Source: Deltaproteobacteria bacterium (lineage in GTDB: Bacteria > UBA10199 > JACPAL01 > JAHFST01). From it: a DNA stretch of 40,112 bases. Shown in pieces: positions 8,301 through 40,112 of this stretch. The translations under genes were made by a program, and so were the position numbers. Positions within the stretch are counted from its first letter, which is position 1; each line of letters starts with the position of its first letter. The DNA is taken from contig JAHFST010000018.1 of the NCBI GenBank assembly GCA_023265625.1, forward strand, positions 1 to 40,112, in the 5' to 3' direction. The notes beneath the pieces were generated by a model. That model did not search any database, was not told where the DNA came from, and worked only from the letters and a program-made list of their open reading frames with translations.

Positions 8301-8871
8301 CTGCGCTGTCGGCCAACATGTGGAATCCGGCCAATGTGTTACCGATGTCCCCAACGTGGCGGTATGTACTGCCAATCAGATTGTCTCAGGCGATCTCTGT
8401 ATTACCTGCGGGACCGATGAAGAGGTGGTCAATAATCAGTGTGTTAAAAAAGCATCACATCCCGTTGACGTGTCCGCTAACACCGATACGGATGAAGATG
8501 GGGCGGTGGATAGTGTAGATAATTGCCCGACCGTGGCCAATCCCGAGCAGACGGATAGCAATGGCGACAAGGTAGGGGATGCTTGTCCGGCGAGTTCAGG
8601 TTCAACGGGCGCACCTCCTCCAACGTCAGGAGCCGATGCGGAGACTCCGGCTAATCCGGATCAAACGCCAACCTCGGACAATACGCCAAATACCGATATT
8701 CAAGACGCCGTCATTGAAACCGCTGGAGGTGGGGGCTGTAGCTTGATTTCTCCGGAAGGATCGAGCGCCTCGGTGCCGCTGTTCTTTTTGGCGGGGGCGC
8801 CGTTCCTGCTGATGGTTGGGGTGCGCCTGTTTCAATCCAGGGCGATCACAAGGATCGCCCCTACAGCCTAA
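5326..8871 (+). CDS. Secreted Cys-rich repeat protein with TSP3 repeats and C-terminal sorting-like anchor
   Basis: This 1181-residue protein has a clear Sec signal peptide (MKNNQLVAFVMFFLLTASA, with likely cleavage after VWA). Residues about 80-300 look like a parallel beta-helix. Calcium-binding thrombospondin type 3 repeats (DxDxDG with DNCP) occur near 442-485, 523-560 and 1054-1085. Residues about 650-980 are Cys-rich repeats with CDDGNACTTDSCD and NCCxxxxDC motifs, encoded by 333-bp direct repeats. The C-terminus has a Pro/Thr linker, GGGGCSL (Cys 1138), EGSS, a hydrophobic segment (about 1147-1165) and a short Arg-containing tail. That layout resembles MYXO-CTERM-like sorting signals. 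The last codons lie inside a GTAGGGGCG-type palindrome. GGGGA about 8 nt upstream of the ATG at 5326 may act as ribosome site. It is probably exported and anchored at the cell surface; its ligand is unknown. Confidence 0.88.
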   Translation: MKNNQLVAFVMFFLLTASAGSVWADPCYVTDYEDHPEHSPNSSQKHYTFRDLISIVSNAGVIDSGTAEVPSWAKPFASFCEDGATPQGGKIRRIIFKPTDDGQPGAIELKDFLPGLTVYKNEQLIVEVPSGYSVFLKPADSFPSGKCGLMIGTDISYQPNDIDPQTFLADATSNSTVIKGSLIVHSFPSDGICVAAKWVQLNGTQSYLNQGNGISVSSDGNLLKGVASLLNQGKGILILSKQNSITQSEVAFNQGVGISLEPNAEQDLISQTVVHDNKGGKGGAGIVLVQYANIMMQPPQVELTTTQTGVVHVVAKAKPGVKDPGATEPEKKYGPPIKSVEVYLATSNDLAEGKPTQGRFFLKTIQMKAGQGSEDISDETIKQVTGKNSVDHKDTFFTFTAQDESKNSSGYSTAVAYPEPSFVFFTPILFNWDVVVNVIKALDPDGDGVLNISLAGKPKDNCPNDKNPDQADHDNDGDGDVCDKTPCPNDAQENEQELKDGVCKAIGPLCSDGQVKVGDQCVADQDKDGVADTADNCPAVANADQKDSDGDKMGDDCDACPEDIGQGNSCGGCGVLAHQPNDPCTNGDGACAGSGFYQCNPDKKSVSCNAKVQPDLTKIADDGNSCTEDVCDGGKEIHPLWGDNTSCNDADACNGMEFCQSGKCVSGPALSCDDGNACTTDSCDPKGGCQHLAIPNCCQQNADCNDNNFCTTDSCDAGSGKCSNVTITYVDAPPSLCQQWVCQDGNKTAVPANEGGACDDGNACSMADKCSGGQCLGNVALSCDDGNVCTTDSCDPNGGCQHTAIPNCCQQNADCNDNNLCTTDSCDAGSGQCSNVTVTYVDVPPSLCQQWVCQDGNKTAVPANDDVACDDGNACTADSCGPGGCQHEAIANCCAKDSDCSDNNACTTDTCNVATGACLNAPITYDQEAPPSACQQWVCQEGAKVAVPANEGMSCDDGDLCSSNDQCVHGDCKGIVVDADGNGVGDTCQTTTCAVGQHVESGQCVTDVPNVAVCTANQIVSGDLCITCGTDEEVVNNQCVKKASHPVDVSANTDTDEDGAVDSVDNCPTVANPEQTDSNGDKVGDACPASSGSTGAPPPTSGADAETPANPDQTPTSDNTPNTDIQDAVIETAGGGGCSLISPEGSSASVPLFFLAGAPFLLMVGVRLFQSRAITRIAPTA
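7339..8180 (+). repeat. Intragenic direct repeats of 333 bp (Cys-rich modules)
   Basis: The codons for CDDGN begin at 7339, 7672 and 7930. Copies 1 and 2 are 333 bp apart and very similar at the DNA level, for example in the stretch beginning TGTTGCCAGCAAAACGCGG. Copy 3 follows after only 258 bp because the segment for the SMADKCSGGQCLGNVALS region, about 75 bp, is absent; copy 3 is also more diverged. This shows module duplication followed by an in-frame loss of one sub-module. Confidence 0.85.
8840..8864 (+). repeat. GTAGGGGCG-family palindrome at gene 3' end
   Basis: This is a 25-bp imperfect palindrome (GGGCGATC, then GATCGCCCCTAC). It is the exact reverse complement of the left arm of the element at 31094. 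It lies within the last codons of the Cys-rich gene and encodes its C-terminal residues (AITRIAPTA). Confidence 0.8.
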
Positions 8872-13478: not shown

Positions 13479-16400
13479 ATGGCCTCATTCACTATTACTG
13501 CGCAGATGGTAACACTGGCCAACACGATTGGCCTTCAGGGGATTCAAGCAGGGAAGACGCTTGGGACCTTGCGGGAACCATTGCGTCAGTGGTCTGAAGG
13601 CCTTTCGTTTAGTCATAGGGCCGATCAGATGCTGTGGCAGCAACTCAACGATTTCGTCGACGGTAATCCTTGCTCGCGAGCCGATGCGAGCAAACTCCTC
13701 AAAAACTTGGCGGGTTTGGATCGAGGTCAAGGTTTTCGCGTCAAGCCCATCCGTCGTATTTTTGTTCCCAACCGGGGCGAACCGGTCATGAGGCTCATTA
13801 CGGCGGCTCGTACCCTGGGTGCCGAGCGCGGCGAAAAGGTCGAGGTCGTGGTCATGTATCTGGAGCAAGATAAAAATGCCCCATGGGTCAAGGAAGCCGA
13901 TATCGCCATCCCGATTCCGCCGAAACGGCAAAAATTAGTTCCCGTCCTCGATGACGATGGAAATCCGGTCATGGTGGAGGATAAGGAAACCAAAGAGCTT
14001 AAACCGAAAATGAAGCGGTTGATCCCGTACCTCGACCTCGAGCTCATTCTTCAAGTGATAAAAGAGACAGATGCTGATTCCGTGTGGCCGGGTTGGGGAT
14101 TTATGTCGGAAAAAGAAGAACTCTCGGCGGGGGTGACTGACCTTGGCAAAACTTTTATTGGTCCGAGTCAAGAGGCGATGCGGGCCGTCGGAGACAAGAT
14201 TGGTTTCAAGCGATTGGCTGATCCGGAGAATCGCACTTGGAGCGGCGGGGCCGTGGCCACAGTGGAAGAGGCCCAGGCGGTTTGCGCCCGGTTGGGGTAT
14301 CCTTGTGTGATCAAGGCGACGGCCGGCGGCGGTGGGCGCGGTATTAAGTTTGTCAACAACGATGCGGAAGTTGTGGAAAAATTTCCAGTTGCGCAGCGCG
14401 AGGCCGGACGGGCCTTTGGAGATGCCACCCTGTTTGTGGAGCGGGCGGTACTCGGGGCGCGTCACATCGAGATCCAAATGATTGCCGATCAATACGGCCA
14501 TGTGGTGGCCGTGGGGGCGAGAGATTGTTCCGTGCAGCGCAACAATCAGAAATTGGTTGAAGAAGCCCCACCTCCGGGGATTAGCGAAAGACAGTTAAAG
14601 AAGATGTACCGTTTGGCGGAAAAGATTGTGCGGGAGGCGGGTTACGTCGGGGTGGGAACCGTGGAAGGGCTCTTCAAGGATGGCGAGTTTCAGCCCATGG
14701 AACTCAATGCCCGTCTTCAAGTGGAGCACACCGTGACCGAGGTGGTGACGGGTACGGACCTCGTCCAAGAGATGATTTGCGTTGCGGAAGGTCATCCTCT
14801 CTCCTTTCTGGAAACGCCGGCGGTTCACGGACATGCCATCGAGGTGCGCGTCAATTTTGAGGATCCTGATAAGGATTTTGCCCCTACCGCAGGTCGCCTC
14901 CACGTTTTTCGTCCTCCCACCGGACCGGGGATTCGTTTTGATTCAGGAGTACGCGAGGGGGACGAGATTGGTTCAGACTTTGATCCCATGGGGGCAAAAT
15001 TGATTGCCTGGGGGAGGACTCGTTCCGAGTCGATTGCCCGAACACGGGGGGCGATCGGGGACTTTGACGTCGATGGGGTCGCCACGAGCGTTGGTTTGGC
15101 CGGTGAGGTTGTGGCCCATCCTGATTTTGTGCAAGGAGGCATTTCGACTCAGTGGTTTCCAGCCTATATGAGAAAGCGCAAGGCCTGGGAAGTCAAACCC
15201 TACAATCTAGAGGGCTTGATGATTGCGGCGGTGTTGGCGTATCGGGGAGAGGCGGAGAGTTATCAGGCCGCCGTCCTGGGTGATTTGAAGAAAGGGCTTC
15301 TGCCATCCCTCCCGCCCCGCCCGGAAAATAATTTTCTCCTCTCGCTCTACGAACGTGAATATTCCTTGTCGGTGAGACAGGTTCGGCTCGGTAATTATGT
15401 TGTGTCTGTTGGAGGACGGGACTTCGAGGTTCAGGTGGAAGAGCGGGGCCGGAGCGAGTACCGCATGGTGGTGGATGGAAGACCGCTGAAGGTGATTGGC
15501 TCTGAGCAGGAGGGGACCTTCGGCCTCACCCTGGAAGAGGGCGTGGCCATTGCCGTCAAACGGCCCCCGGTCGGTGCCATCAAGTCTCCATCCAATGGTT
15601 CCATCCCCAAGATCCTGGTGAAACTGGGGCAAAAAGTGGCGGTCGGAGATGACATTGTTCTTTTTGAACAGATGAAGGGCGAAACGCCGTTGAAGGCCGA
15701 GGTCGCCGGTGAGGTGGAGGAAATTTTTATCCGGGAAGGGGATGCGGTCGAGAAGGGCAAGCTCCTGGTTCGCATTAACACCGATCTGGGGGAGAAGAAG
15801 CCGCCTGAGGCACCTGCATTAGTCTTTCGACCGCGCCATCAAGGGATCTTCTTTGACCTGACGAGGATTCGAAGGGAAGTTGATCAAAGGGTGGTGCAAG
15901 CCGCGTTGCATGCCATCGCGCCTTCTTGCCAACAACATTATTCGGATGGAATCCAGCTCCTGGAACAGGCCCTGTTGGGTTTTGATTCCCTGGGTCTCTT
16001 TACCCAGATGGTTAACCAGCTGGGTGTGACGGTGGGAGAATTAAGTCCCTTTTTGGACAGGATGCTCCAAGTATTTTCCATGGGAGAGGGGCTTTCCGGG
16101 GATCAGTTTAGTGAGACGGCTGCTTCGCTCTTGGAATCTTTCATTGATGTGGAGCTGCTTTTTCAGAAGGGATTGCGTCCCTCGCTCAGGGAAAAATCGG
16201 TGGCCGACCTATTGGATCAATTCCTCAAGACACGCCAGTCCCCCTCGAAGGAGTTTGAAGAGCTGTTGCTACGGGCCTTGCGGCATTATGGGGTGACCAG
16301 CCTGCAATCGTCGGTGGCCTTGGATCGGGCCTTACTCCGTATTGTCATTGCGAGGGAGGAACGCGATTTAAGACAGCGGTTGATTATTAAGTTTCTTGAT

Positions 16401-19400
16401 TGGTTGGCCGAGGTGGGAAAGAAGCGTGAGGGGACCTTAAATGGGAGACTCATGAGTGTCCTCGAGAGGTATGAACTTCCGGATCGAGAGGTCTATCCCG
16501 TGATTCATGCCGCTCAAGGCGTGCTATTTACCCTCCAGCAAGGCAAGATTAGTCGCAATAACCGAGCGGAGGCAAACAGGCGGGTGGATGATTTGATCAC
16601 GCAGGCCTTGTCCGAACCCGAGGGATCGGAGTCAAGGCGCGAAGCCATTCGAAGCATTGCCGCCCTGCCGGCCGTAACGGCCAATCCGCTCCTTACCCAC
16701 TTTGGCGGGGCTGATCAACCGCGTGCAGAGCTTGCCGCGTCGGCCCTCTTGGTGCGTTTTTATGGGAGTCCGCATCCAAGACGACGTCATCAAATCGTTG
16801 ACCACAAGTTAGTGTCAGATGTCCAGGGTCCAGTATCGGTGGGTCGATTTCGTGACGGGAAATCCAAGGTATTGCGAGGTACGGTGCGAATCATTGGTGG
16901 CGCACAGCCCTTATCCGGTAAGGACATTACCAATCTTGTCAGGAGGGGATTGAACCACCTGGAAGGACTGACCCAGACCAGGGGCAGGACGGCTTCGGAT
17001 TCTGCCGAACCAATCATGGATTGTACCTTGGAGGTGGCCCTCCCTGCCTTAGATGGGTCATTTGATAAATCTGAACCGAACAATCTGGCTGGGTTGATTG
17101 CAGCGTTGCCTGATGTGATTGGGTATGTGTCTCCTTCGCTCTCGATCAAGAGAATCATCTTCGCCGTGATGGGAGTCAGCGGCGGGGAAGAGGTGGCCTA
17201 CCTCATTTTTGAACGTTCCAACGAGACACCGTCTCGTTTTGTCGAGGATCCGCTCCGTCGTTTTCTCCATCCCTATCGAGCGGAAGAGATTGAGCTTTGG
17301 CGGCTGGCGAGACATTGGGACGTTGCGAAGATTGATACCGCGTGGGCCTGGAATCACCTCTTTATCGCCACTGAAAAGGGGGATGATCCAGGTAAGCCTG
17401 GTGACGGCAAGAAGAAGGACCCTGATCGACGCCTCTTTGCCTATTCCGTAGTGCCTCATCTCTCGTCACCGGCAAGGGATAGTCAAGGTAATCTCTTTTT
17501 TTCCGAGATTGATGTGGCCATGGGGCAGGCCATCCACGCGATTTACGATGCCTTGCAAAATGATGAGCGGGCCAAAGGGGCGGCTTCCCATCGGATCAAC
17601 CTTATCATTAGGCCCGAGATGACCGCGTCGGTGCAGGACCTCCAGGGGGCGGTGAATCGGCTCTATCCACGGATACGAGGGCGGGCGATTGGTGAGACCT
17701 CCATTCGGTTGCATCGGTGGCGTCCGTCGGAGGATCAACCTTATCGAGATGTTGTGATTCGTGCGCGGCGTGTGGGGGATTCGGGTCAGGTGCAGTTAGA
17801 AGTAATTGAACCCGCCCCGCCACCAAGTGGCTATATCACCCCCATGACCGCTCATCAACGACGCGTGCTCCGGAATCATCGTTCGGGTTACCTTGATCCT
17901 TACGAGTATCGGGACATGCTGGTGGCGGCCGGTCCATACGGCGAGGCAACCTTCCAGGAGTTTGATATTTCCCATGAAAAGGTGGTGGTGGATGGGTTGG
18001 GGCGTGACAACATCCAGTATGAACTTGATCAGAGAGTGGATCGTCCCGCGGGGCAAAACAGTGCCAAGGTGGTGTTCGGTCTGCTCAGGCGTCCCACTAA
18101 AAATCACCCCGAGGGGATTGAGGTGATGCAGATTATCAATGATCCCTCCATCGGGCTTTGTCCTCTGGAGGGACCGGAGTGTGCCCGCATCATGGCGGCG
18201 ATCAATTATGCGGAGCGCCAAGGTCTGGAGGTCGATTGGTTGACCACCTCCAGCGGGGCCGGTATCTCCATGACGAAGGGGACGGAGAACCTTGATTGGA
18301 CGGCCCGGGTGATGCGGCGTATCGGCGAGTTTGTCCGGCGCGGGGGACGGATCAATGTGATCGCCCAAAAGACCAATATCGGGGCGCAGTCCTACTGGAT
18401 GGCCAATGCGACGATGATGTTGGACAGCGGAGGGGTCTTGATCTCCACCCCGGATTCTTTTACGGCCCTGACGGGCAATGAGGCCCAAAAGATTTCGGGT
18501 TCCGTTCCTGCTGAAGACAATGTCGGACTAGCCGGCGCGGAGCGGATTACCGGTCCCAATGGCGAGACGCAGTTTTTGGTTGGTTCGATTGTCGAGGCGA
18601 CAGAGTTGCTTTGGAGGCGTCATGATTTGTTGGCACGGCCTAGCGGCGAGGTCTTGGCCTCGATCCGGCAGAGTGGTGACCCGAAGGATCGTGACATTAC
18701 GGCCTTTGTCTATGGGGAGAAGCCGGATAAGAGTCCGTTAACCTTGGCCGATGTCTTTGCAGACAAGGATCGAAAGACCGCCTACCCGGTCGAGGCCCTG
18801 ATGAGCGCGGTGCATGATCAGGATGGGCCGGTTTTTGAGCGTTGGTCTTCGTGGAGTCGAGACGGTTCGGATTTGGTCAAGGTGCACGAGACCAGGATCG
18901 GTGGCATACCCAGTATGCTGATCGGTGTTGAGGCCCGTCCGATGCCGAGGGAAGGCGAGATCCCCCCGGGATATCCTGCGCAGTGGTCCGGATCGACGCT
19001 CTTTCCCGAAGGTTCAAAGAAGATGGCGCGGGCGATCAATGCAGCCAGCGGCAACATGGATCTTGTCATCCTGGCCAACCTCTCCGGTTTTGATGGAAGT
19101 CCGGAGTCTCTGGCCAAATGCCAGCTCGAATGGGGCACGGCGATTGAAGAGGCGGTGCGGACATTCCAAGGGAAGCTCGTCTTTGTGGTGGTGACTCGCT
19201 ATCATGGCGGCGCCTATGTTGTCTTCTCCCGTGTGCTCAATCACCGCATGACTGTGGCGGCCGTGGAGGGCGCCTTCGCCTCCGTGATTGGGGGGGCCAT
19301 TGCGGTCAAGGTGGTCTTTAAGGGCGAGGTCAAAAAAGAGGTGAGTCGTCTCTTGAGGGAAGATGCTACGGTAAGAATGGAATTGAGTGCGGCTCGTAGT

Positions 19401-20624
19401 GAAGAAGAGCGGGTGGAGATTGAAAAAAGGGTTCGGGCCGAGGTAGAGCGAAAATTACGCAACAAATATGACGGATTTCACACCGTAGAACGGGCACGGG
19501 ATGTTGGTTCCGTCGAGGTCATTGTTCCTGCCAAGGGGCTGCGCCCTTGGATCATCGAAGAACTTCGTTCGGGACGCGAGGCGTATCGCGCGGAGCTCAC
19601 TGCTGAGTTAGAGTGTGCCCGTCAAATCGTGGCGGCGGTCCGTGGGGCAACTATTTCTGGGGGACTTGCGTTGTTGGAGGGTGCCTTGGGTGCCTCCCAC
19701 TTAGGACGACATCTCCATCGATTTGTTGACCCATTAGAACAAGGCACGGCATTAACGGCAGCGCCGGTACCTGCGATAAGAGCGACAGGCTCTCCTGCTG
19801 TCGATTTACGAGTGGAGTCTGGAGCATCAAGCTTAACAGATGATCAGCAGCAATTTGCCGCCACCTTAGGTCAAGATTTGCGTGTGAAAATGATAGGCGA
19901 CAGAACGGTACTTTCCTATAGCTCCGTAGAGACGACAATGGATGTGGCGCAGGCGCTTGCCAAGCAGGGTTGGAACCCTGGCAGTGTCGTGGTCGCCGAG
20001 ACCCAAACGAAGGGGCGCGGGCGTCCGGGAAAATCTTGGTTTTCCAGCGCGGGACAAGTGCTCTGCCTCTCCCTCGACCTCCCAACTACTTTGCCCGCTG
20101 ACCAGCACTACAAGCTTGGCTTTGCGGCGGCCTTGGCCGTGGCCAATGTGGTTGACGAGTTGGGATCGGATGTTGCCCAAATCAAGTGGCCCAACGACGT
20201 TTACCTGAAGGGAAAGAAACTGGCGGGCCTCCTCGTGGAAACGGTTGGCGACGGGAGGGTTGTCTTGGGTCTGGGACTTAACACCAATGCCGAGCGTTTT
20301 GAGGGAGAGCTCGCTGATACGGCCGTTTCGTTACGGATGACGACAAGGACCAGTTGGCCGCATGAGGAGATTTTGAAAAAATTATTCCCAAAAATTGCAG
20401 AGGTTTTGGCACAGCTGGAGCAGGGCGATTGGATGGATGTCTTGCAGGGAGTGAGGAGTCGTTTTTACCTGCGGGATACTCGTGTCCAAGTGACGCATGG
20501 GGATGATATCGTCCAAGGGGTGGTGAGGGACATGACAGGGGAGGGGCTTCTGGTGCTTCAGACAGACGATGGTGATTTACGCAGATTTGCCAGTGGCGAG
20601 GTGACCGTTGTTAGGAAACTCTGA
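13479..20624 (+). CDS. Single-chain acetyl-CoA carboxylase fused to a biotin-protein ligase domain
   Basis: This 2381-residue protein should make malonyl-CoA from acetyl-CoA, ATP and bicarbonate in the cytoplasm. Order of domains: an unrecognised N-terminal 90 residues; biotin carboxylase about 90-560 (PNRGE at 97-101, ATP-grasp loop KATAGGGGRG at 279-288, ELNARLQVEH ending at H417); biotin carrier about 695-770 with the acceptor Lys 733 in EQMKGE; a long region to about 1450 whose second half resembles the eukaryotic ACC-central domain (RRLFAYSVVPH, HRINLIIRPEM); carboxyltransferase about 1450-2060 (ANLSGF near 1866, RYHGGAYVVFS near 1907); and a biotin ligase domain about 2130-2381 (GRGRPGKSW from 2179, KWPNDVYLKGKKLAG from 2236). 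Typical bacteria split these activities over four or more genes. No ribosome site precedes the ATG. Substrate could be another acyl-CoA, but the layout favours acetyl-CoA. Confidence 0.9.
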   Translation: MASFTITAQMVTLANTIGLQGIQAGKTLGTLREPLRQWSEGLSFSHRADQMLWQQLNDFVDGNPCSRADASKLLKNLAGLDRGQGFRVKPIRRIFVPNRGEPVMRLITAARTLGAERGEKVEVVVMYLEQDKNAPWVKEADIAIPIPPKRQKLVPVLDDDGNPVMVEDKETKELKPKMKRLIPYLDLELILQVIKETDADSVWPGWGFMSEKEELSAGVTDLGKTFIGPSQEAMRAVGDKIGFKRLADPENRTWSGGAVATVEEAQAVCARLGYPCVIKATAGGGGRGIKFVNNDAEVVEKFPVAQREAGRAFGDATLFVERAVLGARHIEIQMIADQYGHVVAVGARDCSVQRNNQKLVEEAPPPGISERQLKKMYRLAEKIVREAGYVGVGTVEGLFKDGEFQPMELNARLQVEHTVTEVVTGTDLVQEMICVAEGHPLSFLETPAVHGHAIEVRVNFEDPDKDFAPTAGRLHVFRPPTGPGIRFDSGVREGDEIGSDFDPMGAKLIAWGRTRSESIARTRGAIGDFDVDGVATSVGLAGEVVAHPDFVQGGISTQWFPAYMRKRKAWEVKPYNLEGLMIAAVLAYRGEAESYQAAVLGDLKKGLLPSLPPRPENNFLLSLYEREYSLSVRQVRLGNYVVSVGGRDFEVQVEERGRSEYRMVVDGRPLKVIGSEQEGTFGLTLEEGVAIAVKRPPVGAIKSPSNGSIPKILVKLGQKVAVGDDIVLFEQMKGETPLKAEVAGEVEEIFIREGDAVEKGKLLVRINTDLGEKKPPEAPALVFRPRHQGIFFDLTRIRREVDQRVVQAALHAIAPSCQQHYSDGIQLLEQALLGFDSLGLFTQMVNQLGVTVGELSPFLDRMLQVFSMGEGLSGDQFSETAASLLESFIDVELLFQKGLRPSLREKSVADLLDQFLKTRQSPSKEFEELLLRALRHYGVTSLQSSVALDRALLRIVIAREERDLRQRLIIKFLDWLAEVGKKREGTLNGRLMSVLERYELPDREVYPVIHAAQGVLFTLQQGKISRNNRAEANRRVDDLITQALSEPEGSESRREAIRSIAALPAVTANPLLTHFGGADQPRAELAASALLVRFYGSPHPRRRHQIVDHKLVSDVQGPVSVGRFRDGKSKVLRGTVRIIGGAQPLSGKDITNLVRRGLNHLEGLTQTRGRTASDSAEPIMDCTLEVALPALDGSFDKSEPNNLAGLIAALPDVIGYVSPSLSIKRIIFAVMGVSGGEEVAYLIFERSNETPSRFVEDPLRRFLHPYRAEEIELWRLARHWDVAKIDTAWAWNHLFIATEKGDDPGKPGDGKKKDPDRRLFAYSVVPHLSSPARDSQGNLFFSEIDVAMGQAIHAIYDALQNDERAKGAASHRINLIIRPEMTASVQDLQGAVNRLYPRIRGRAIGETSIRLHRWRPSEDQPYRDVVIRARRVGDSGQVQLEVIEPAPPPSGYITPMTAHQRRVLRNHRSGYLDPYEYRDMLVAAGPYGEATFQEFDISHEKVVVDGLGRDNIQYELDQRVDRPAGQNSAKVVFGLLRRPTKNHPEGIEVMQIINDPSIGLCPLEGPECARIMAAINYAERQGLEVDWLTTSSGAGISMTKGTENLDWTARVMRRIGEFVRRGGRINVIAQKTNIGAQSYWMANATMMLDSGGVLISTPDSFTALTGNEAQKISGSVPAEDNVGLAGAERITGPNGETQFLVGSIVEATELLWRRHDLLARPSGEVLASIRQSGDPKDRDITAFVYGEKPDKSPLTLADVFADKDRKTAYPVEALMSAVHDQDGPVFERWSSWSRDGSDLVKVHETRIGGIPSMLIGVEARPMPREGEIPPGYPAQWSGSTLFPEGSKKMARAINAASGNMDLVILANLSGFDGSPESLAKCQLEWGTAIEEAVRTFQGKLVFVVVTRYHGGAYVVFSRVLNHRMTVAAVEGAFASVIGGAIAVKVVFKGEVKKEVSRLLREDATVRMELSAARSEEERVEIEKRVRAEVERKLRNKYDGFHTVERARDVGSVEVIVPAKGLRPWIIEELRSGREAYRAELTAELECARQIVAAVRGATISGGLALLEGALGASHLGRHLHRFVDPLEQGTALTAAPVPAIRATGSPAVDLRVESGASSLTDDQQQFAATLGQDLRVKMIGDRTVLSYSSVETTMDVAQALAKQGWNPGSVVVAETQTKGRGRPGKSWFSSAGQVLCLSLDLPTTLPADQHYKLGFAAALAVANVVDELGSDVAQIKWPNDVYLKGKKLAGLLVETVGDGRVVLGLGLNTNAERFEGELADTAVSLRMTTRTSWPHEEILKKLFPKIAEVLAQLEQGDWMDVLQGVRSRFYLRDTRVQVTHGDDIVQGVVRDMTGEGLLVLQTDDGDLRRFASGEVTVVRKL

Positions 20625-21381
20625 GATCCTTCATGTTGAGACAGTCGATTCTACCAATTCTCTTGTAAAGAAATTAATCCAAGAAAATTCCCAGCGTGCC
20701 CGGGACGGGCTAGTGGTTGTTGCCGATGCTCAGACGGCCGGTCGCGGACGTTTGACTGGCCGGACCTGGATCTCCCCGCCAAAAGCGGGGCTGCTCTGTT
20801 CCATCGCCATTCCAACCCATCGTTATCCGTGCCCGGGTACCCAGCCCCTGCCCTTGGTGGTGGGAATCATCCTGGCCAGGACGATAGAATCTCTCTGCAC
20901 GAAACAAAATCTTTCCGTCCAGGTGGAGCTAAAATGGCCCAACGATCTCTACGTTCAAGGACGTAAATTAAGCGGGATTCTGATTGAAACGGAGGGGGAT
21001 TATTCGATCATTGGGATCGGCATCAACCTCAACACCGAAGAATTCCCGCCGGAATTGCGTCACAAGGCGACGTCCCTGAAGATCTTGACGGGTCGCGATT
21101 GGGATAGCTCCCAGGTGTTGGCGGAACTCTTGCGCATGATGGATGAGACGCTGCATCACTGGCAGCAAACCTCTGGCCCCGCATGGGACTCCTTGCTGGG
21201 CGAGTATCGGCGGCGCGATTTTCTAAAAGGAAAGAAGCTCTCCCTGCTGGTGGGGAGTCAAGCAACGCAAAAGCCTGTTTCCGTCATGGCCCAAGGGATC
21301 GCTGACGATGGGGCCTTGATGGTTTGCGACCCGGAGGGGGTTAGCTCGAAGATTTATTCAGGAGAAATTTCTTTGGATTAA
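20608..21381 (+). CDS. birA: Biotin--[acetyl-CoA-carboxylase] ligase, stand-alone
   Basis: This 257-residue enzyme would attach biotin to the carrier-domain lysine through biotinyl-AMP. Family motifs are clear: VDSTN at 13-17, GRGRLTGRTW at 45-54, KWPNDLYVQGRKLSGILIE near 110, GIGINLN near 137, and a small C-terminal SH3-like domain. There is no N-terminal DNA-binding domain, so it is a group I ligase without repressor function. The start is a TTG at 20608, inside the end of the carboxylase gene (17-nt overlap), with GAGG 6 nt before it. This implies translational coupling. Its sequence differs from the ligase domain fused to the carboxylase, so it is not a recent duplicate. Its stop codon overlaps that of vapC on the other strand. 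Confidence 0.92.
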   Translation: MLGNSEILHVETVDSTNSLVKKLIQENSQRARDGLVVVADAQTAGRGRLTGRTWISPPKAGLLCSIAIPTHRYPCPGTQPLPLVVGIILARTIESLCTKQNLSVQVELKWPNDLYVQGRKLSGILIETEGDYSIIGIGINLNTEEFPPELRHKATSLKILTGRDWDSSQVLAELLRMMDETLHHWQQTSGPAWDSLLGEYRRRDFLKGKKLSLLVGSQATQKPVSVMAQGIADDGALMVCDPEGVSSKIYSGEISLD

Positions 21382-23889: not shown

Positions 23890-23963
23890 TGTAGGGGCGT
23901 CCCGGTGGGACGCCCCCTTCGGATGATGCCGAGGTCCTGGGCGACCCACCGGGTCGCCCCCAC
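23890..23963. repeat. Composite GTAGGGGCG-family palindromic repeat
   Basis: A 74-bp element begins GTAGGGGCGTCCCGGTGGGA and ends GGGTCGCCCCCAC. The centre contains TTCGG-ATGATG-CCGA, which forms a small internal hairpin. It matches, with a few changes, the composite element inside mutL at 28573-28644. It lies in the gap between thiolase and plsB, next to the DnaA boxes. Confidence 0.8.
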
Positions 23964-27507: not shown

Positions 27508-29295
27508 ATGTCTGATTCTACCCCAATGATTCGAAAGCTCCCCGAAGACCTGATCTGCAAGATCGCGGCGGGGGAGGTGATTGAACGCCCGGCCTCGGTG
27601 GTGAAGGAATTGGTGGAGAATGCCATTGATGCCGGCGCGCGAGAGATCCAGATCGAGATCGAGGACGGGGGGCGTCAAGGGATTTGCGTGGTGGATGATG
27701 GTTGTGGGATGAGCCCGGAGGGGGCGCGGTTGGCCCTAGAGCGTCATGCGACCAGCAAACTTCCCACCGACGAAGACCTGTTTCGGATCTGCACCCTCGG
27801 GTTTCGTGGCGAGGCGTTGCCGTCGATTGCGGCGGTTTCGTGGCTAACCCTGGAAAGTAGGGGCAGGATATATCCTGCCCCTACCGGAATATCGGAGGGT
27901 ATCCGTATCGAGATCGAAGGGGGCAAGATCGTCAAACAAGGCCCTTCGGCCCTTCCCGTTGGGACACGGATTTCGGTCCGCAATCTCTTTTTCAACACCC
28001 CGGCGCGGCTGAAATTCATGAAGGGGCGGGAGACGGAGTTTTCGCACATCTCTCACTGGGTCGAGACGATTGCGCTGGCCTATCCTCAGATTGGTTTCAC
28101 GCTAACGCATCAAGGAAAACGGGAACTTTTTTCACCGCCGCGCGCGAATATCACGGAACGAGTCAGGGATCTGCTCGGCGTTGATTTGGCGGGGGCGATG
28201 ATTTCCTTCCAGGGAGGGCGGGGCGGCTTGGAGTTGTTTGGTGTGTGCTCCCGTCATGATATTACGAGCGGTACTAGTCGCAGCCTGTATCTTTTTGTGA
28301 ATGGCCGCGCCGTGCGTGACCGTTTGCTCCAACACGCGGTGATTGCGGCCTACGAAAATTTGTTGATGAAGGGGCGCTACCCTTGGGTGGTGCTCTATCT
28401 GCAGGTTCCCCCTGATTTTGTGGATGTGAATGTGCACCCGACCAAAAATGAGGTGAGGTTTGCGCAATCGCAGGGGGTGCATGAGTTGGTGAGGGAGACG
28501 ATTCGCGGCATTTTGCAAGAAAGGGCGCATGTAGGGGCGCCGCTTGCTGCGCCCCTGCAGAATACCGTTGTGGGTAGGGGCGACCCGGTGGGTCGCCCTT
28601 CGGGTGATGCCGAAGTTCTGGGCGACCCACCGGGTCGCCCCTACAGTGACCTATCGGGTGGGGGCGTATGGCCATACGCCCCTACGGAATACCAGGAATC
28701 GTTTAAATCTTTTACCAGTTCTATTCGCGTGATCGGCCAGGTCCACCAGACCTATCTGGTCTGCGAAAACGACGACAAGCTCATCCTGATCGATCAACAC
28801 GCCGCCCATGAGCGGATCGGTTTTGAAAAACTAAAACGCCAATTCGAGGCGGAAGGGATTGCACGCCAAAGATTACTCATCCCGGAAAATTTTGACCTAA
28901 CCCCATCCGACGCGGAGATTTTAAAAAAATACCTCCCCGACCTGGAGCAATTCGGTCTCGAGGTGGAATTTTTTGGCGGGCATACCTTTATCTTGCGGAC
29001 CGTCCCGGTGCTGTTGTCAGACGCCTCGTGCGTGGCGCTGATTCAGGATCTGATTCAGGAGATCCAGGCCTTTGAAAAATTGACGCCGATCGAAGAGCGC
29101 GTGCATGAAATCCTGGAACGCATGGCCTGTCACGCCCAGGTGCGGGCGGGGGATCGTTTGACCCCGCTCGAGATCGAGGCGTTGTTGGCGGAGATGGAGC
29201 AAACTCGTTTTGCCTATAGCTGTCCCCATGGCCGACCGGCCTTGTTGCAAATCCCGTTTGGGGAGATTGAAAAATGGTTTCGTAGGAAAATTTGA
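27508..29295 (+). CDS. mutL: DNA mismatch repair protein MutL, endonuclease type
   Basis: This 595-residue protein has the GHKL ATPase motifs: IAAGEVIERPASVVKELVEN (19-38), VDDGCGM (62-68), RHATSKL, LGFRGEALPSI (97-107) and FFNTPARLKF. The C-terminal domain carries the latent nicking endonuclease motif DQHAAHERIGFE (from D429) plus ACHAQVRAG and CPHGRP, so it should nick DNA itself, as in organisms without MutH. Two regions are encoded by inserted palindromic repeats: residues about 117-126 in a loop of the ATPase domain, and about 342-393 in the linker between domains. Reading frame is kept in both. The stop codon overlaps the miaA start (TTGA). No ribosome site is evident at the ATG. Confidence 0.95.
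   Translation: MSDSTPMIRKLPEDLICKIAAGEVIERPASVVKELVENAIDAGAREIQIEIEDGGRQGICVVDDGCGMSPEGARLALERHATSKLPTDEDLFRICTLGFRGEALPSIAAVSWLTLESRGRIYPAPTGISEGIRIEIEGGKIVKQGPSALPVGTRISVRNLFFNTPARLKFMKGRETEFSHISHWVETIALAYPQIGFTLTHQGKRELFSPPRANITERVRDLLGVDLAGAMISFQGGRGGLELFGVCSRHDITSGTSRSLYLFVNGRAVRDRLLQHAVIAAYENLLMKGRYPWVVLYLQVPPDFVDVNVHPTKNEVRFAQSQGVHELVRETIRGILQERAHVGAPLAAPLQNTVVGRGDPVGRPSGDAEVLGDPPGRPYSDLSGGGVWPYAPTEYQESFKSFTSSIRVIGQVHQTYLVCENDDKLILIDQHAAHERIGFEKLKRQFEAEGIARQRLLIPENFDLTPSDAEILKKYLPDLEQFGLEVEFFGGHTFILRTVPVLLSDASCVALIQDLIQEIQAFEKLTPIEERVHEILERMACHAQVRAGDRLTPLEIEALLAEMEQTRFAYSCPHGRPALLQIPFGEIEKWFRRKI
27857..27884 (+). repeat. Perfect 28-bp palindrome inside mutL (ATPase domain loop)
   Basis: The sequence GTAGGGGCAGGATA is followed directly by its exact reverse complement. 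It encodes residues 117-126 (SRGRIYPAPT), in a loop that varies in length among MutL proteins. It shares the GTAGGGGC...GCCCCTAC ends with the other elements in the window. Confidence 0.88.
28531..28558 (+). repeat. GTAGGGGCG palindrome in mutL linker, copy 1
   Basis: GTAGGGGCGC and GCGCCCCTGC form 10-bp arms with one mismatch around an 8-nt centre. It encodes VGAPLAAPL in the linker between the MutL domains. Confidence 0.75.
28573..28644 (+). repeat. Composite palindrome in mutL linker, copy 2
   Basis: Two perfect 25-bp inverted arms (28573-28597 and 28620-28644) flank a 22-bp centre with TTCGGGTGATGCCGAA. Each arm is itself nearly palindromic. The peptide is of the type GRGDPVGRPSG...GDPPGRPYS. 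It matches the intergenic element at 23890-23963. Confidence 0.88.
28658..28685 (+). repeat. GTAGGGGCG palindrome in mutL linker, copy 3
   Basis: A 28-bp palindrome with one mismatch (GTGGGGGCGTATGG / CCATACGCCCCTAC) encodes GGVWPYAPT. It lies only 13 bp after copy 2, so three elements have accumulated in one linker. Confidence 0.85.
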
Positions 29296-30560: not shown

Positions 30561-31097
30561 ATGTCATCGACGATACCAGAGAGTGAACGATTAAAGCCGG
30601 TGGAAAATCCCGCGAACCTCTGGACGCGCCGGGAATTTTTTGGTTTTGCCGGCTGGGCCGCGTTTCTCAGCGGTATCGGGCTTGGGTTGCTTGGCTTTCT
30701 ACGTTTCATGTTTCCTCGGGTTCTCTTTGAACCCTCTCCCTTTTTTCAGGCCGGTAAACCGGATGAGTATGTCGATGGAGAGGTGAGTGAGAAATATAAG
30801 GAGAGCCAGCGGGTCTGGATCTTGCGGCAGGGGGCAAAGATTATTGCCATTCAAGCGATCTGCACCCATCTGGGTTGCACCCCGCGTTGGCTCTCCCTGG
30901 AGGTCAAGTTCAAATGTCCTTGCCACGGGAGCGGTTTCACGAAGGAGGGTGTCAATTTTGAAGGCCCGGCCCCTCGACCCCTGGAGCGTCTTAAAATCAC
31001 ATTGAATGATGAGGGAATGTTGCTGATTGATAAGAGTAAGAAATTTCTTTGGGAAAAGGGACAGTGGGACGATCCGGAATCGTTTGTGACGGTGTAG
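30561..31097 (+). CDS. Rieske iron-sulfur protein of a bc-type complex
   Basis: This 178-residue protein binds a 2Fe-2S cluster through C101 and H103 (CTHLGC) and C119 and H122 (CPCHGSGF); C106 and C121 can form the stabilising disulfide. The N-terminus has a twin-arginine motif (TRREFFGFAG) followed by one hydrophobic segment (about 30-50), so it is probably a Tat-exported, membrane-anchored protein. It passes electrons from quinol at the Qo site to the cytochrome c side. Its stop codon TAG is part of the palindrome that begins at 31094. First gene of a five-gene operon. Confidence 0.94.
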   Translation: MSSTIPESERLKPVENPANLWTRREFFGFAGWAAFLSGIGLGLLGFLRFMFPRVLFEPSPFFQAGKPDEYVDGEVSEKYKESQRVWILRQGAKIIAIQAICTHLGCTPRWLSLEVKFKCPCHGSGFTKEGVNFEGPAPRPLERLKITLNDEGMLLIDKSKKFLWEKGQWDDPESFVTV

Positions 31098-31156
31098 GGG
31101 CGATCCTTGTGATCGCCCGGTCCGGGACAAGGGGCGAATACAAGATTCGCCCCTAC
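31094..31156 (+). repeat. GTAGGGGCG-family palindromic element between Rieske and cytochrome b genes
   Basis: The 63-bp element runs from GTAGGGGCGATCC to GATTCGCCCCTAC. Its first TAG (31095-31097) is the Rieske stop codon. It ends just before the GAGG ribosome site of the next gene. Its left arm recurs in reverse complement at 8840-8864. In the transcript it would fold into a strong hairpin that might stabilise or separate parts of the operon message. Confidence 0.85.
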
Positions 31157-35346: not shown

Positions 35347-36022
35347 ATTTCATTTTATTTTTATCGGATTGTTTTTTGCCGCACCATTGTATGCCGGCGG
35401 TACCATCCAAGGCATCGTGACCCTTCGTGGTAATCCACCCCCGGCGCAAAGGCGGGCGATTGTTTCCGAGCATGTGGTGTGCGGCACCCGCCATACGGAT
35501 GATGATCTGAAGGTGGATAATGGCCACATCGAGAACGTCGTGGTCTATCTGGAAGGTCCGATGACTCAGGGAAAGGCCTTGAATCTTAATGAGCCAAAGG
35601 TCGTCGAACAAAAAGGCTGCCAGTTTGTCCCACACTTAACCCTCTTGCCTGCGGGTGCCCCCCTGTTGATCAAAAACAGCGATGGTATCCTGCACAACTT
35701 TCGGACCTTGAGTCGTGCGAATCCGCCGCAAAATCTTTCTCAAATGGCCGGGGGTCCTCCCCTGAGGCTTATCTTGGAGCGGCCTGAAGTGATTGAGCTG
35801 GCCTGTGATTTACATCGTTGGATGCAGGCCTGGGTGGTGGTGATGGGGAATGCCTACTATGCCCTTAGCGATGCGGCGGGTCATTACCAACTGACGGATG
35901 TGCCTGCGGGAGATTATCGATTGGTGAGTTGGCAGGAGCGTCTGGGGCGCATGGATAAGCGAGTGGTGGTTCACGAAGGAGAGGTTGCGAACCAGAATTT
36001 TATCTTTGTGATGAAGCCATAA
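35309..36022 (+). CDS. Secreted cupredoxin-like protein with carboxypeptidase-regulatory-type fold
   Basis: This 237-residue protein has an export signal (NKFHFIFIGLFFAAPLYA). The ATG at 35309 overlaps the octaheme gene by 38 nt; a TTG at 35336 would give a cleaner signal peptide, and neither has a strong ribosome site. After GGTIQGIVTLRGNPP (a carboxypeptidase-regulatory-like strand) comes a cupredoxin-like section: ILHNF, then CDLHRWMQAWVVV. A His followed by Cys-x2-His-x2-Met resembles a type 1 copper site. The end (GHYQLTDVPAGDYRLVSWQERLG) is again regulatory-domain-like. It may be a periplasmic electron carrier for the bc complex, which is inferred from ligands and operon position. Its end overlaps the convergent giant gene by 52 bp. 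Confidence 0.78.
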   Translation: MRFGIISLILVNKFHFIFIGLFFAAPLYAGGTIQGIVTLRGNPPPAQRRAIVSEHVVCGTRHTDDDLKVDNGHIENVVVYLEGPMTQGKALNLNEPKVVEQKGCQFVPHLTLLPAGAPLLIKNSDGILHNFRTLSRANPPQNLSQMAGGPPLRLILERPEVIELACDLHRWMQAWVVVMGNAYYALSDAAGHYQLTDVPAGDYRLVSWQERLGRMDKRVVVHEGEVANQNFIFVMKP

Positions 36023-39000
36023 AGAACGCCTATCTGATGCTGCCAGAAATCATGGGCCGATGTTGTGGAGGATCCCTCAGTAGGCATCAGCGAGCATCCG
36101 CCGCCGCCTTCCGTACCGACCTTCGGCCCCACCACGACAATTGCATCCGCGGGCATGCCCAGGGCCAAGGTTTGCGCGCTTGCCGCGTCAGAGGTCTGTT
36201 GCAGGACTTCCGCCAAGGTCTCATTGGTTGCAGTGGATGAGGTGCTTGAGGTCTTTGTGGCCTCCACAACCGTGTTGGAGAGGCTCAAGGCCTTGAGTTT
36301 TTCACCCTTCTTGGTGACGATCTTGCCCTTATCCGCATTTTTTTCCTTAGGTTCCTGTTGGGAAGGTGCTTCGGGTTTGGTTGGAATGGCTTCCGGTTGG
36401 GTGCCTGGCTCGGGACTATTGGGAGCGGGTCCTGTTTGATCGGTGCCCGCCGCGGGTTTCTGTTCCGGAGCCGCCGGTTTTTCCTCACCCACATATCCAA
36501 CGGTGTAACACTTGCTGGTGCCACCGGCGGTGCACGGAACTGAACAGTTGAAGACATTCGTGGCGCACTTATTCGGTGTTTCTTCTTTGCTCTCAACAGG
36601 TTTTTCTTGGATGTGTTTTTCAGGTTCAACCGGTTTCTTTGTTTCAACGATGTCGCCAGGTTTTGGTTCCTCGGGTTTGGTGTCATCCATCTTCTCCACC
36701 GGTGCCGTGGGATTGGCTGGTTCACTGGGCTTTTGCTCTGTGACATCCTCCGGGGATTTTGGTTGATCATTCGCCGGTGTTAGCGGAGTTGCCGCTACTG
36801 GCGTTGCGGTGACCGGTGTGTCGCTTGGCTTCTCAGGGATGGGAAGAGGTCTCTCTTGAGGCGTTTCCTTGACGGGTTTTTGCAGCTTGATGGTGCCATC
36901 CGCCTCCATCTCAATCTCACCGGTCTTTTCGTTCATGACTTTCTGCGAAACCGTTTTCTTGACCTCGGGGGTAAATACCTGGTTGCGTTCCCAGACCTTG
37001 CCCATGATTGCGCCGTTTCGAGGCAAGGACACCGGCATGACCGGGATATTATCGTCGCCTTTCAAGAATTCCCCAAACGCCTTGTTGGTCAGCTCACTCA
37101 GAGATTTCATGTTGGCCTGACTGTGATCATGCTCGATGTCATGATTGGTGATTTCGCGAACCGTCTTATTCTTCAGGGCGGCGCGGAATTCCTGCTCGTT
37201 GAGTTTGCAAGGGGCGTCGAGCGTGATTTCCTCTCCCATCCTGGGACCCGCGGTGATAAAGGCCCGGGTCGAGCCTTCTTGGCAGGCCAGGTTCATGATC
37301 CCGGTGTTTTCCACGCCCCCCGTATCGCTGCCCTTATTGGTTTTAGCTTCCACCTGCGGCGCCGCCGGATCACAACCGCACTTGGGCAGGTCAAAATTGT
37401 AGTAAGACGATTGGATATGGCACATGCGGGTTTTTTCATCACAGGCGACCGTGGGGTTCTGCCCCTTGTCATCCTTGAATTCGGCGCGTTCCGACAAGTC
37501 TTTGACCTGTTCGTTGGTCAGGCAGCTCATGCAGTTGAGACTCCAAGGATTCCCGGTGGCGCACTTATCGTTAAAAGCAGCAAACTGCGGTACTGGACAG
37601 GCACAGCTGGGGAGACTGACCGTATCGGCCACCTGATCTTCCTTCTTCATGATGAACTGGGTGCCGGTGGCATCCTGTTGCACCATGATGCTGATCTTTT
37701 TCTCCTGCAGGAGATTGGCATATCGTCCCACATAGTTGGTCATGTCGGAGACCTGTTGCGGTGCGGCGCACGAGAAACAATTCGCCATGCCCATGCTCTT
37801 GGCGCAGGTGTCGGTGCTGAAGAACATCGAGGACATTTCGTTGGGTGCTGCAGGCGCGGCGGGTTTTTCCGGAGTGGCGGGGACTTCATAGGGCTCGTCC
37901 GGTAGTTCTTTCGGAGCTATTTTCTTGCAATCCTGACTGCAGAGGTTGTCCGGCTTGCCATTTTCGTCACCCGCGTCACAGTCTTCTCCAGCGTCAATTT
38001 GTTTGTTGCCGCAAGTGACACTCGGCTTGCAAGTGAGTTGGATGGGGGAGCAAAGGCTGAGCAGGCCGTCCTTGGTTCCTTTGTCCGGGTCCTGGCTGCC
38101 GTTCTTGCTGACAAAGGGTTTGAATTCGGTCTCAGGGGGTGTGCAATTGACCGTGAACAAGGCGTACCCACCCGACAATTTTTTGCAATTGCCGGTGGCC
38201 AGGCAGGCCTCATCGCCCACTCCGGAGATCTTGACGGTGGTTAGTCCATTGGCCTCCAGATCCGATTGGCTGGCCTCCGCCAGGGTGCAGGTCGCCTCTG
38301 TCAAACACTGGCTGTTACAGCCATCGCCGCTGATGGTATTGCCATCATCGCATTCCTCTTGAGCGACATTTTTCAGGCCATCGCCACAGATGGGCTTTTT
38401 ACAAGCATTTGTGCAATGATCGAGTTCCCCATTGAGTCCCTTGTTGAGGTTACTTCCTTCGTCGCATTCTTCATCAGAGCGATTCTTTTCCCCGTCACCG
38501 CAGATCGGTTTTTTACAAGCTTGTGTGCAGGTATCGCTGCCATTATTTTTACCGTCATCGCATTCTTCATCTTTATCCGCATTCCCATCGCCGCAGGTGG
38601 CCGGACCTTGCACGGTCAATTTGCCCGTGCAAATAGCCTCCTTGGTCCCGGGCGCCCCTTGGAATTTACCCTCGACGGTCACTTCCCCTTGGGCATTGGG
38701 GGTGAGGGCCATGGTCGTGTCGATGGTGTAGCCTTGGCCTAAGACTGATGGATCGACGGCTTGACCGTTAATGGTACCGGTCAGGGTGTTGTAGACCAGG
38801 TACGAGACGGTGTAAGTTCCCGCCGTATCCGTTGGATAGATTTGGATGGGCAGGCACTCAGCGGGCGGTGCCACCACAGATAACGCATCGGCACATTCAA
38901 AAGTTTTGTTATTCAAATTACATTGGAAGCCCACTTTTTTGTTCTCAACGGGGCCACTGGCCTCGAATTCCAGCTTATCGTTGTTGACCTTGAGGTCGGG

Positions 39001-40112
39001 GCTTAACGGCTCGCAACTGAGGGTATTGGGCTTGAAGAAACTGCAACTTGCCGTCCCGGTGCCCTGGAAATTTTTACTGCCGTCCGCTTGTAAGCAACTG
39101 ACACCACATTCGCTTGTTTGAATATTGGTGGAACAACTGGTCTTCTGCTTTGTCTTGGTGTTCATGTAGGCGCAGCTGATGGTACTGGTCTGATCAATTT
39201 TTTCGACAAAGAACTTGGCACCCTTGGAATCGATCGGTTTGGCAAAATTATTTTCCGGAATCAGTTCCCCGCCTTCCGGTGGTACTTTTTGGCAGGACCA
39301 ATCGCCGTTTTCCCCGTACTTCTCTGTCAGGTCGATATTCTGCCCGGTCAAGGTACAATCGGCATTGTCACCCTTCAACACCGTCCCATCGCAAACCAAT
39401 TCACAATTCATCGCGGGGGCGGGGGTGATGATGCAAGCCTTGTCGACTAATTCACAGGACTCGCCTGGTTTTAAGCTGGGGTCATCCTTCCCTTCACACT
39501 TGGACCCACCGAGGGTGTACATGGCCTCGCCAGTGCTGGGATTGCAGAGGGCGGTCATGCAGGGGTTTTCGGAGGTGAAGACCTTTTCAGTGTTGACCTT
39601 GGCTCCGTCGACGCAAGTATCGTTGGTGCAGGGGTTGTTGTCGTCGGTGACTACGCCGTCACAAGGGTCGGAGGGAGCTTTGGGTTGGTCTCCCTGTTTG
39701 CAAGTGGGGATGGAGGTATGGATAGCCTTGCCCGTAGCCTTGTCACAAGAGTCAGTGGTGCAGGCGTTTTTGTCATCAAGATCGGCCGGAGGGCTATCGG
39801 TGTGAACGGCTAGACCTGTAGCCTTGTCACAAGAGTCAGTGGTGCAGGCATTCTTGTCATCAAGATCAGCTGGGGGACTGTCGGTGTGAACAGCCAATCC
39901 AGTTGATTTGTCACAAGAGTCAGTGGTGCAGGCATTCTTGTCATCAAGATCGGCTGGAGGGCTATCGGTATGAACTGCCAGGCCTGTGGCCTTGTCACAA
40001 GAGTCAGTGGTGCAGGCATTCTTGTCATCAAGATCGGCTGGAGGGCTATCGGTATGAACTGCCAGGCCTGTGGCCTTGTCACAAGAGTCAGTGGTGCAGG
40101 CATTCTTGTCAT
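35971..40112 (-). CDS. Giant Cys-rich surface-type repeat protein, 5' end outside window
   Basis: The frame is open from the right edge to 35971, at least 1380 codons; the true start lies beyond the window. From the N-terminal side it has tandem 28-residue repeats (AVHTDSPPADLDDKNACTTDSCD), then Cys-rich sections, then myxobacterial cysteine-rich repeats of the DUF4215 type (CGDGxxNxxEECDDG, about 38600-38300 and 37990-37920). A long Pro/Glu/Lys/Thr-rich stalk follows (about 36880-36300). GGGGCSLMPTEGSS appears near the C-terminus (Cys codon at 36094-36096), as in the gene ending at 8871. There, however, the hydrophobic anchor is absent, and the remaining 27 residues partly read the opposite strand of the cupredoxin-like gene. 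It is probably exported; if so, anchoring may have been lost. Confidence 0.85.
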   Translation of the reverse strand, partial: DKNACTTDSCDKATGLAVHTDSPPADLDDKNACTTDSCDKATGLAVHTDSPPADLDDKNACTTDSCDKSTGLAVHTDSPPADLDDKNACTTDSCDKATGLAVHTDSPPADLDDKNACTTDSCDKATGKAIHTSIPTCKQGDQPKAPSDPCDGVVTDDNNPCTNDTCVDGAKVNTEKVFTSENPCMTALCNPSTGEAMYTLGGSKCEGKDDPSLKPGESCELVDKACIITPAPAMNCELVCDGTVLKGDNADCTLTGQNIDLTEKYGENGDWSCQKVPPEGGELIPENNFAKPIDSKGAKFFVEKIDQTSTISCAYMNTKTKQKTSCSTNIQTSECGVSCLQADGSKNFQGTGTASCSFFKPNTLSCEPLSPDLKVNNDKLEFEASGPVENKKVGFQCNLNNKTFECADALSVVAPPAECLPIQIYPTDTAGTYTVSYLVYNTLTGTINGQAVDPSVLGQGYTIDTTMALTPNAQGEVTVEGKFQGAPGTKEAICTGKLTVQGPATCGDGNADKDEECDDGKNNGSDTCTQACKKPICGDGEKNRSDEECDEGSNLNKGLNGELDHCTNACKKPICGDGLKNVAQEECDDGNTISGDGCNSQCLTEATCTLAEASQSDLEANGLTTVKISGVGDEACLATGNCKKLSGGYALFTVNCTPPETEFKPFVSKNGSQDPDKGTKDGLLSLCSPIQLTCKPSVTCGNKQIDAGEDCDAGDENGKPDNLCSQDCKKIAPKELPDEPYEVPATPEKPAAPAAPNEMSSMFFSTDTCAKSMGMANCFSCAAPQQVSDMTNYVGRYANLLQEKKISIMVQQDATGTQFIMKKEDQVADTVSLPSCACPVPQFAAFNDKCATGNPWSLNCMSCLTNEQVKDLSERAEFKDDKGQNPTVACDEKTRMCHIQSSYYNFDLPKCGCDPAAPQVEAKTNKGSDTGGVENTGIMNLACQEGSTRAFITAGPRMGEEITLDAPCKLNEQEFRAALKNKTVREITNHDIEHDHSQANMKSLSELTNKAFGEFLKGDDNIPVMPVSLPRNGAIMGKVWERNQVFTPEVKKTVSQKVMNEKTGEIEMEADGTIKLQKPVKETPQERPLPIPEKPSDTPVTATPVAATPLTPANDQPKSPEDVTEQKPSEPANPTAPVEKMDDTKPEEPKPGDIVETKKPVEPEKHIQEKPVESKEETPNKCATNVFNCSVPCTAGGTSKCYTVGYVGEEKPAAPEQKPAAGTDQTGPAPNSPEPGTQPEAIPTKPEAPSQQEPKEKNADKGKIVTKKGEKLKALSLSNTVVEATKTSSTSSTATNETLAEVLQQTSDAASAQTLALGMPADAIVVVGPKVGTEGGGGCSLMPTEGSSTTSAHDFWQHQIGVLYGFITKIKFWFATSPS
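39740..40112 (-). repeat. 84-bp in-frame tandem repeat array
   Basis: The marker TCACAAGAGTCAGTGGTGCA recurs starting at 39743, 39827, 39911, 39995 and 40079, exactly 84 bp apart. Units near the edge are almost identical; those toward 39740 have a few changes (for example one Lys-Ser-Thr-Gly variant). Each unit encodes 28 residues with two Cys. The array continues past the window. Confidence 0.95.

Follow-up and report, generated by a model that had tools for sequence, protein, structure and literature searches.

The mutL gene and its inserts

The window, as we call the whole stretch of 40,112 nucleotides analyzed here, contains a mutL gene with palindromic DNA inside its reading frame. The features concerned are as follows.

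27508 to 29295, plus strand: mutL open reading frame, host gene of the four inserts, 595 aa (Pfam MutL_C, E = 4e-47; DNA_mis_repair, 2e-34)
27857 to 27884, no strand assigned: P1, perfect 28-bp palindrome GTAGGGGCAGGATATATCCTGCCCCTAC, 14/14 pairs
28531 to 28558, plus strand: P2, imperfect 28-bp palindrome GTAGGGGC...GCCCCTGC, one end degenerate
28574 to 28644, no strand assigned: P3, 71-bp head-to-head REP dimer (REPIN-like), in the linker
28658 to 28685, minus strand: P4, near-perfect 28-bp palindrome GTGGGGGC...GCCCCTAC, 13/14 pairs, one mismatch

Both the listing of open reading frames and the translation show mutL to be uninterrupted across 595 codons. The product contains the Pfam domains HATPase, DNA_mis_repair, and MutL_C, and its translation retains GFRGEA, DDGCGM, DQHAAHER, ACHAQVRAGD, and CPHGRP, which bears out the first-pass annotation in its view that the gene stays open and keeps its catalytic motifs. 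The same annotation described four palindromes with common ends within the frame. All four lie where it placed them, but only P1 and P3 have exact ends on both sides, and P2 and P4 do not; the 3' end of P2 is CTGC, and P4 is a member of the GTATNGCNATAC subfamily. The outer arms of P3, 25 nt each and spaced by 21 nt, are 100% complementary. Because each arm is a GTAG-tagged hairpin on its own, GGGCGACCC ggt GGGTCGCCC, P3 is a head-to-head dimer and not one simple palindrome.

The predicted peptide of P1 is SRGRIYPAPT (residues about 117-126, in a loop of the ATPase domain), and those of P2, P3, and P4 are VGAPLAAPLQ, GRGDPVGRPSGDAEVLGDPPGRPY, and GGGVWPYAPT, respectively, all in the linker. 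In the AlphaFold model, P1 forms the loop joining strands 112-118 and 131-137 (pLDDT about 58), and P2-P4 fall within a disordered linker stretch, residues 341-400. Coordinates and model thus agree with the distribution proposed earlier, with one perfect 28-bp palindrome in an ATPase-domain loop and three palindromes in the linker. P1, P3, and P4 are read in a common phase (x-RG-x or a variant) and P2 in another (VGA); none of the four uses the phase that would turn GTAG into a stop codon.

A genome-wide population of GTAG-tagged repeats

The genome (2.93 Mb in 37 contigs) is the sole member of its family within the genome collection. Palindromes of the form GTAGGGGC-N0-30-GCCCCTAC occur in it 25 times, versus one occurrence of the reversed pattern. 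Full-length 71-bp dimers number seven, two of them in the window, and are accompanied by single half units; the six besides P3 show 89-93% identity. The second copy in the window is intergenic.

23891 to 23963, no strand assigned: further member of the 71-bp dimer family, intergenic, 89% identical to P3

Hairpins led by GTAGGGG were counted in 1.21 Mb of sampled stretches of this genome. There are 121 of them, versus 0, 0, 0, 1, and 5 for five scrambled 7-mers, and therefore their abundance is not due to chance. The elements come in three forms, namely tagged hairpins on their own, full palindromes of 28 bp, whose commonest inner stems are GTATTGCAATAC and TTCAAAATTTTGAA, and head-to-head dimers. 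Head-to-head GTAGGGGC pairs, 46-83 bp in size, were found 42 times in 815 kb. The GTAG tag is unpaired at one end in dimer halves and single units, and pairs with CTAC in 28-bp full palindromes such as P1. Since the base outside GTAG is T at 79% of ends, the palindromy of a 28-mer usually extends to 30 bp (TGTAG...CTACA). The elements are clustered, with at least two in each of 11 genes versus 1.9 such genes expected, and the median spacing between neighbors in five fully listed contigs is 1.5 kb versus the expected 4.5 kb.

Position relative to genes

The first-pass annotation had proposed a search of the whole genome for further copies and a count of those in coding and intergenic DNA; repeated copies were indeed found. 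With genes called by our own hexamer model, 45 of the 121 GTAGGGG hairpins (about 37%) are inside genes and 76 outside, 41 of the latter supplying the TAG stop codon of a gene and 35 lying elsewhere. In an 815-kb set, partly picked around known copies, 43 of 107 GTAGGGGC elements (40%) are intragenic, versus 90% coding sequence (p about 2e-36). This strong depletion is as expected from purifying selection on intragenic insertions. In 400 kb chosen regardless of copies, 7 of 10 elements are intragenic versus 84% coding sequence, too few for depletion to be assessed. The length of intragenic dimers is 1 mod 3 in 12 of 15 cases; the corresponding count outside genes is 13 of 27. Two elements at gene ends are present in the window.

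31094 to 31156, no strand assigned: 63-bp head-to-head dimer, its GTAG forming the TAG stop of a Rieske-like gene (30561-31097)
8837 to 8864, minus strand: single GTAGGGGC hairpin over the final codons of ORF 5326-8871 (...ITRIAPT)

Insertion into pre-existing GTAG stop codons was considered as an origin of the gene-end copies and rejected. In the sample, 61 of 117 GTAG stops are element ends, and the 56 others already match the numbers of TAG stops following T, C, and A (62, 52, and 42, respectively); hence the GTAG seems to arrive with the element. One subfamily, GTAGGGGTTCAAAATTTTGAACCCCTAC, is represented 30 times in 1.21 Mb; in about half of these cases it provides the TAG stop of a gene (e.g., C20:8002-8184, C25:130095-131399, and C3:3713-4453 in the same genome, G000); its peptide VGVQNFEPL is also observed inside iPGM.

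Several other features of the window were recorded. ORF 5326-8871 and ORF 35971-39897, near the two window ends, are long, cysteine-rich, and repetitive, with CDDGNACTTDSC-type repeats. ORF 13479-20624 is a single frame of 2381 aa that, by its sequence, resembles an acyl-CoA carboxylase fusion with a C-terminal biotin-protein-ligase-like region. It is followed by a separate ORF, 20608-21381, which appears ligase-like from its translation.

Other host genes

In-frame elements are present in 32 of 1085 sampled genes (about 3%, in a sample partly picked around known copies), with up to four per gene. About two dozen conserved genes besides mutL are affected, and most of the insert-bearing ORFs are real enzymes as judged by Pfam. 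The hosts identified in this way include PrmC, BioA, LD-carboxypeptidase, an Opp-type ATPase, RsmA, MetH, an M20 peptidase, and an RluD-like synthase, as well as TruA, UDG, a NadB-like protein, Dus, and others. Multiple inserts were found in MutL (four), in MetG, MutY, iPGM, and MurD (three each), and in an AccC-like carboxylase and Ppx/GppA (two each). The inserts do not appear specific to repair genes, since most hosts are metabolic, translation, or envelope genes.

Sequence alignment with solved homologs shows gaps at the insert positions in all seven proteins checked (BioA, AccC-like, iPGM, MetG, RsmA, MutY, and OppD-like). The net gain relative to these homologs is about +5 aa for a 10-aa insert in the AccC-like protein and +6 to +7 in BioA. 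A fixed net insertion length was discarded, as the gain spans about +4 to +20 aa with no constant rule. In many cases the gain falls short of the length of the element, and thus neither the precise unit ends nor a target duplication can be read from these alignments.

MutL of relatives and palindromes of the class

According to the first-pass annotation, the insert peptides have no counterpart in ordinary MutL, and close relatives sharing them without DNA palindromy would instead point to ordinary linker evolution. The close MutL relatives do not have these peptides. The P1 segment has no counterpart in six close MutLs (five from the same order and one further; 53-62% identical), and the linkers of the same six proteins lack these palindromic units. 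With the nearest MutL 62% identical, the empty sites are those of homologs and not of an exact filled/empty DNA pair.

Palindromes of the GTAGGGGC type with genome-specific inner stems are found in 20 of the 46 genomes of the class, a set identical to that of the phylum. In two other genomes (G016 and G043) some of them lie inside long ORFs; in G013, none of the nine palindromes read is inside a long ORF. Inserts in mutL are not confined to the present genome. In another family of the class (G027, L033), the mutL linker contains GTAGGGGC-type units, the same unit type as P2. In G032 (L053), CCCCCTTTGAAAAAGGGGG lies in frame in the same mutL ATPase loop as P1; repeats of this type have about 45 copies, with up to one mismatch, in each of G032 and G027. 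In G023 (L036, G023:C147:2989-3010), the in-frame insert in the mutL linker is ATTCCCGCG-N3-GCGGGAAT, with 29 copies in that genome. The mutL gene of G039 (L037) has insert-like segments in both the ATPase loop and the linker that are rare in its genome. A further reading, possible but less likely than not, is that GTAG palindromes of the class are spread by an agent other than RAYT, with the mutL linker and ATPase loop being recurrent targets for several unrelated palindromic families across the class. Exact GTAGGGGCGTATTGCAATACGCCCCTAC was observed in five IMG/VR viral contigs (L223-L227), a possible vehicle between hosts.

Relation to known repeats

Of the repeats already described, the GTAG-tagged REP superfamily (Di Nocera, De Gregorio, Rocco 2013, PMC3733652) comes closest. 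The main text of that paper describes GTAG and CGTC REPs in >80 species, including in-frame intragenic copies, often in repair genes for the GTAG REPs, and REP ends that give TAG stops. The shared properties are the GTAG terminus, a short hairpin, frequent head-to-head dimers, several families per genome, a location mainly outside genes, gene 3'-end copies giving TAG stops, in-frame intragenic copies (the published dimers add 20-30 aa), and copies in DNA-repair and pseudouridine-synthase genes. Unlike the repeats described there, many units here are full palindromes of 28 bp in which the terminal GTAG and CTAC pair with each other, and no association with RAYT was found. The comparison with its 24 GTAG families is based on the main text, in which mutL and mutY are absent, and the present units may match one of these families.

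P3 resembles REPINs (PMC3116915, 2011) in consisting of two inverted REP hairpins with a short spacer and in having several near-identical genomic copies; unlike REPINs, the elements are also found inside genes and no cognate RAYT was found. The first-pass annotation had drawn a parallel with the palindromic elements of Rickettsia. These RPEs (Ogata et al. 2000; reviewed in PMC2229807) are palindromes of 105-146 bp in frame in protein genes. The parallel holds as an analogy, as in both cases palindromic repeats are tolerated in frame in many conserved genes, but not as the nearest kind: the units here are 28-83 bp long and have GTAG ends. There is no evidence of common descent.

Origin of the inserts and alternative explanations

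Very likely, P1-P4 derive from very short GTAG-tagged palindromic repeats, a non-autonomous population that multiplies in this genome and in the class, and they survive as neutral in-frame inserts. The earlier suggestion, that a palindromic element spreads and that flexible loops tolerate it, is upheld by the genome-wide copies, the in-frame copies in conserved genes, the gaps in homologs, and the loop or disordered positions of the inserts. Mobility of the elements is suggested by their copy number, by the existence of subfamilies, and by the empty sites in homologs. An enzyme acting in trans would transpose or copy the hairpin, single-stranded DNA being the probable source. Insertion would be widespread, and selection would then purge gene-breaking copies. 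The presumed survivors are intergenic copies, gene-end copies with GTAG as the stop, and frame-keeping copies in surface loops and linkers. The frame is presumably kept by selection on phase, with the TAG phase excluded, and on length. In mutL, one such survivor would occupy the flexible ATPase-domain loop and three the disordered linker. Translation of the mutL insert peptides is probable, and most likely they are neutral.

A natural candidate for the enzyme is a RAYT (Y1) transposase. The inserts would then be GTAG REPs of an ordinary REP/RAYT (REPtron) system of the class, which is the same explanation with a named mobilizer. The GTAG ends, the hairpin halves, and the head-to-head dimers fit GTAG REPs and REPINs, and the genome itself contains 10 matches to Y1_Tnp, the majority within ORFs 250-342 aa long. 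However, the search for a RAYT transposase proposed in the first-pass annotation revealed no link. A GTAGGGG hairpin within about 1.5 kb of Y1_Tnp was seen at none of the 37 loci examined across the class. Five genomes carrying 8-35 palindromes, including G002 (98% complete), have no Y1_Tnp match, with the caveat that gaps in metagenome-type assemblies could hide a transposase. Palindrome and Y1_Tnp counts are, if anything, weakly negatively correlated (rho -0.23, p 0.12). Moreover, eight Y1_Tnp loci were read in this genome, and five of them (L016 and L020-L023; e.g., L021:1951-1971 and 2632-2656) adjoin a different palindrome, ACCGTCCGAAATTCGGACGGT, which may be a partner family of the transposase distinct from the GTAG units. 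RAYT is thus not supported as the mobilizer, and its involvement seems doubtful.

Alternatively, the inserts could alter MutL function, for instance by weakening mismatch repair and producing a mutator state, and be kept by selection. In this genome MutL, MutY, and UDG all carry inserts, the linker or the ATPase loop of mutL also holds palindromic repeats in other families of the class, and many repair genes are among the REP targets in the main text of PMC3733652, whose authors speculated about a functional effect. This explanation is nevertheless unlikely given the predominance of metabolic, translation, and envelope genes among hosts, and, in MutL, the modeled placement of the inserts in a loop and a disordered linker with the motifs intact. 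Still less probable is action at the RNA level, with hairpins skipped or removed by translational bypass or serving as mRNA structures. Each copy can form an mRNA hairpin and many are at gene 3' ends, but within genes the copies leave the frame open and stay out of the TAG phase, and dimers there favor one length class; bypass would require neither. Ordinary evolution of the linker and loop without a mobile repeat is hardly credible: MutL linkers do vary in length and sequence among all relatives, but this would account neither for DNA palindromy whose unit types recur at other genomic sites, unrelated genes included, nor for an ATPase-loop segment missing from close relatives.

In summary, palindromes that code for protein, familiar chiefly from Rickettsia and a small number of REP-rich genomes, are now seen in an uncultured lineage as well. 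The common ends with many inner-stem subfamilies, the absent RAYT link, and the repeated hits in mutL make this a system in which to test both the agent that moves REPs lacking a RAYT and the effect, neutral or mutator, of inserts in repair genes.
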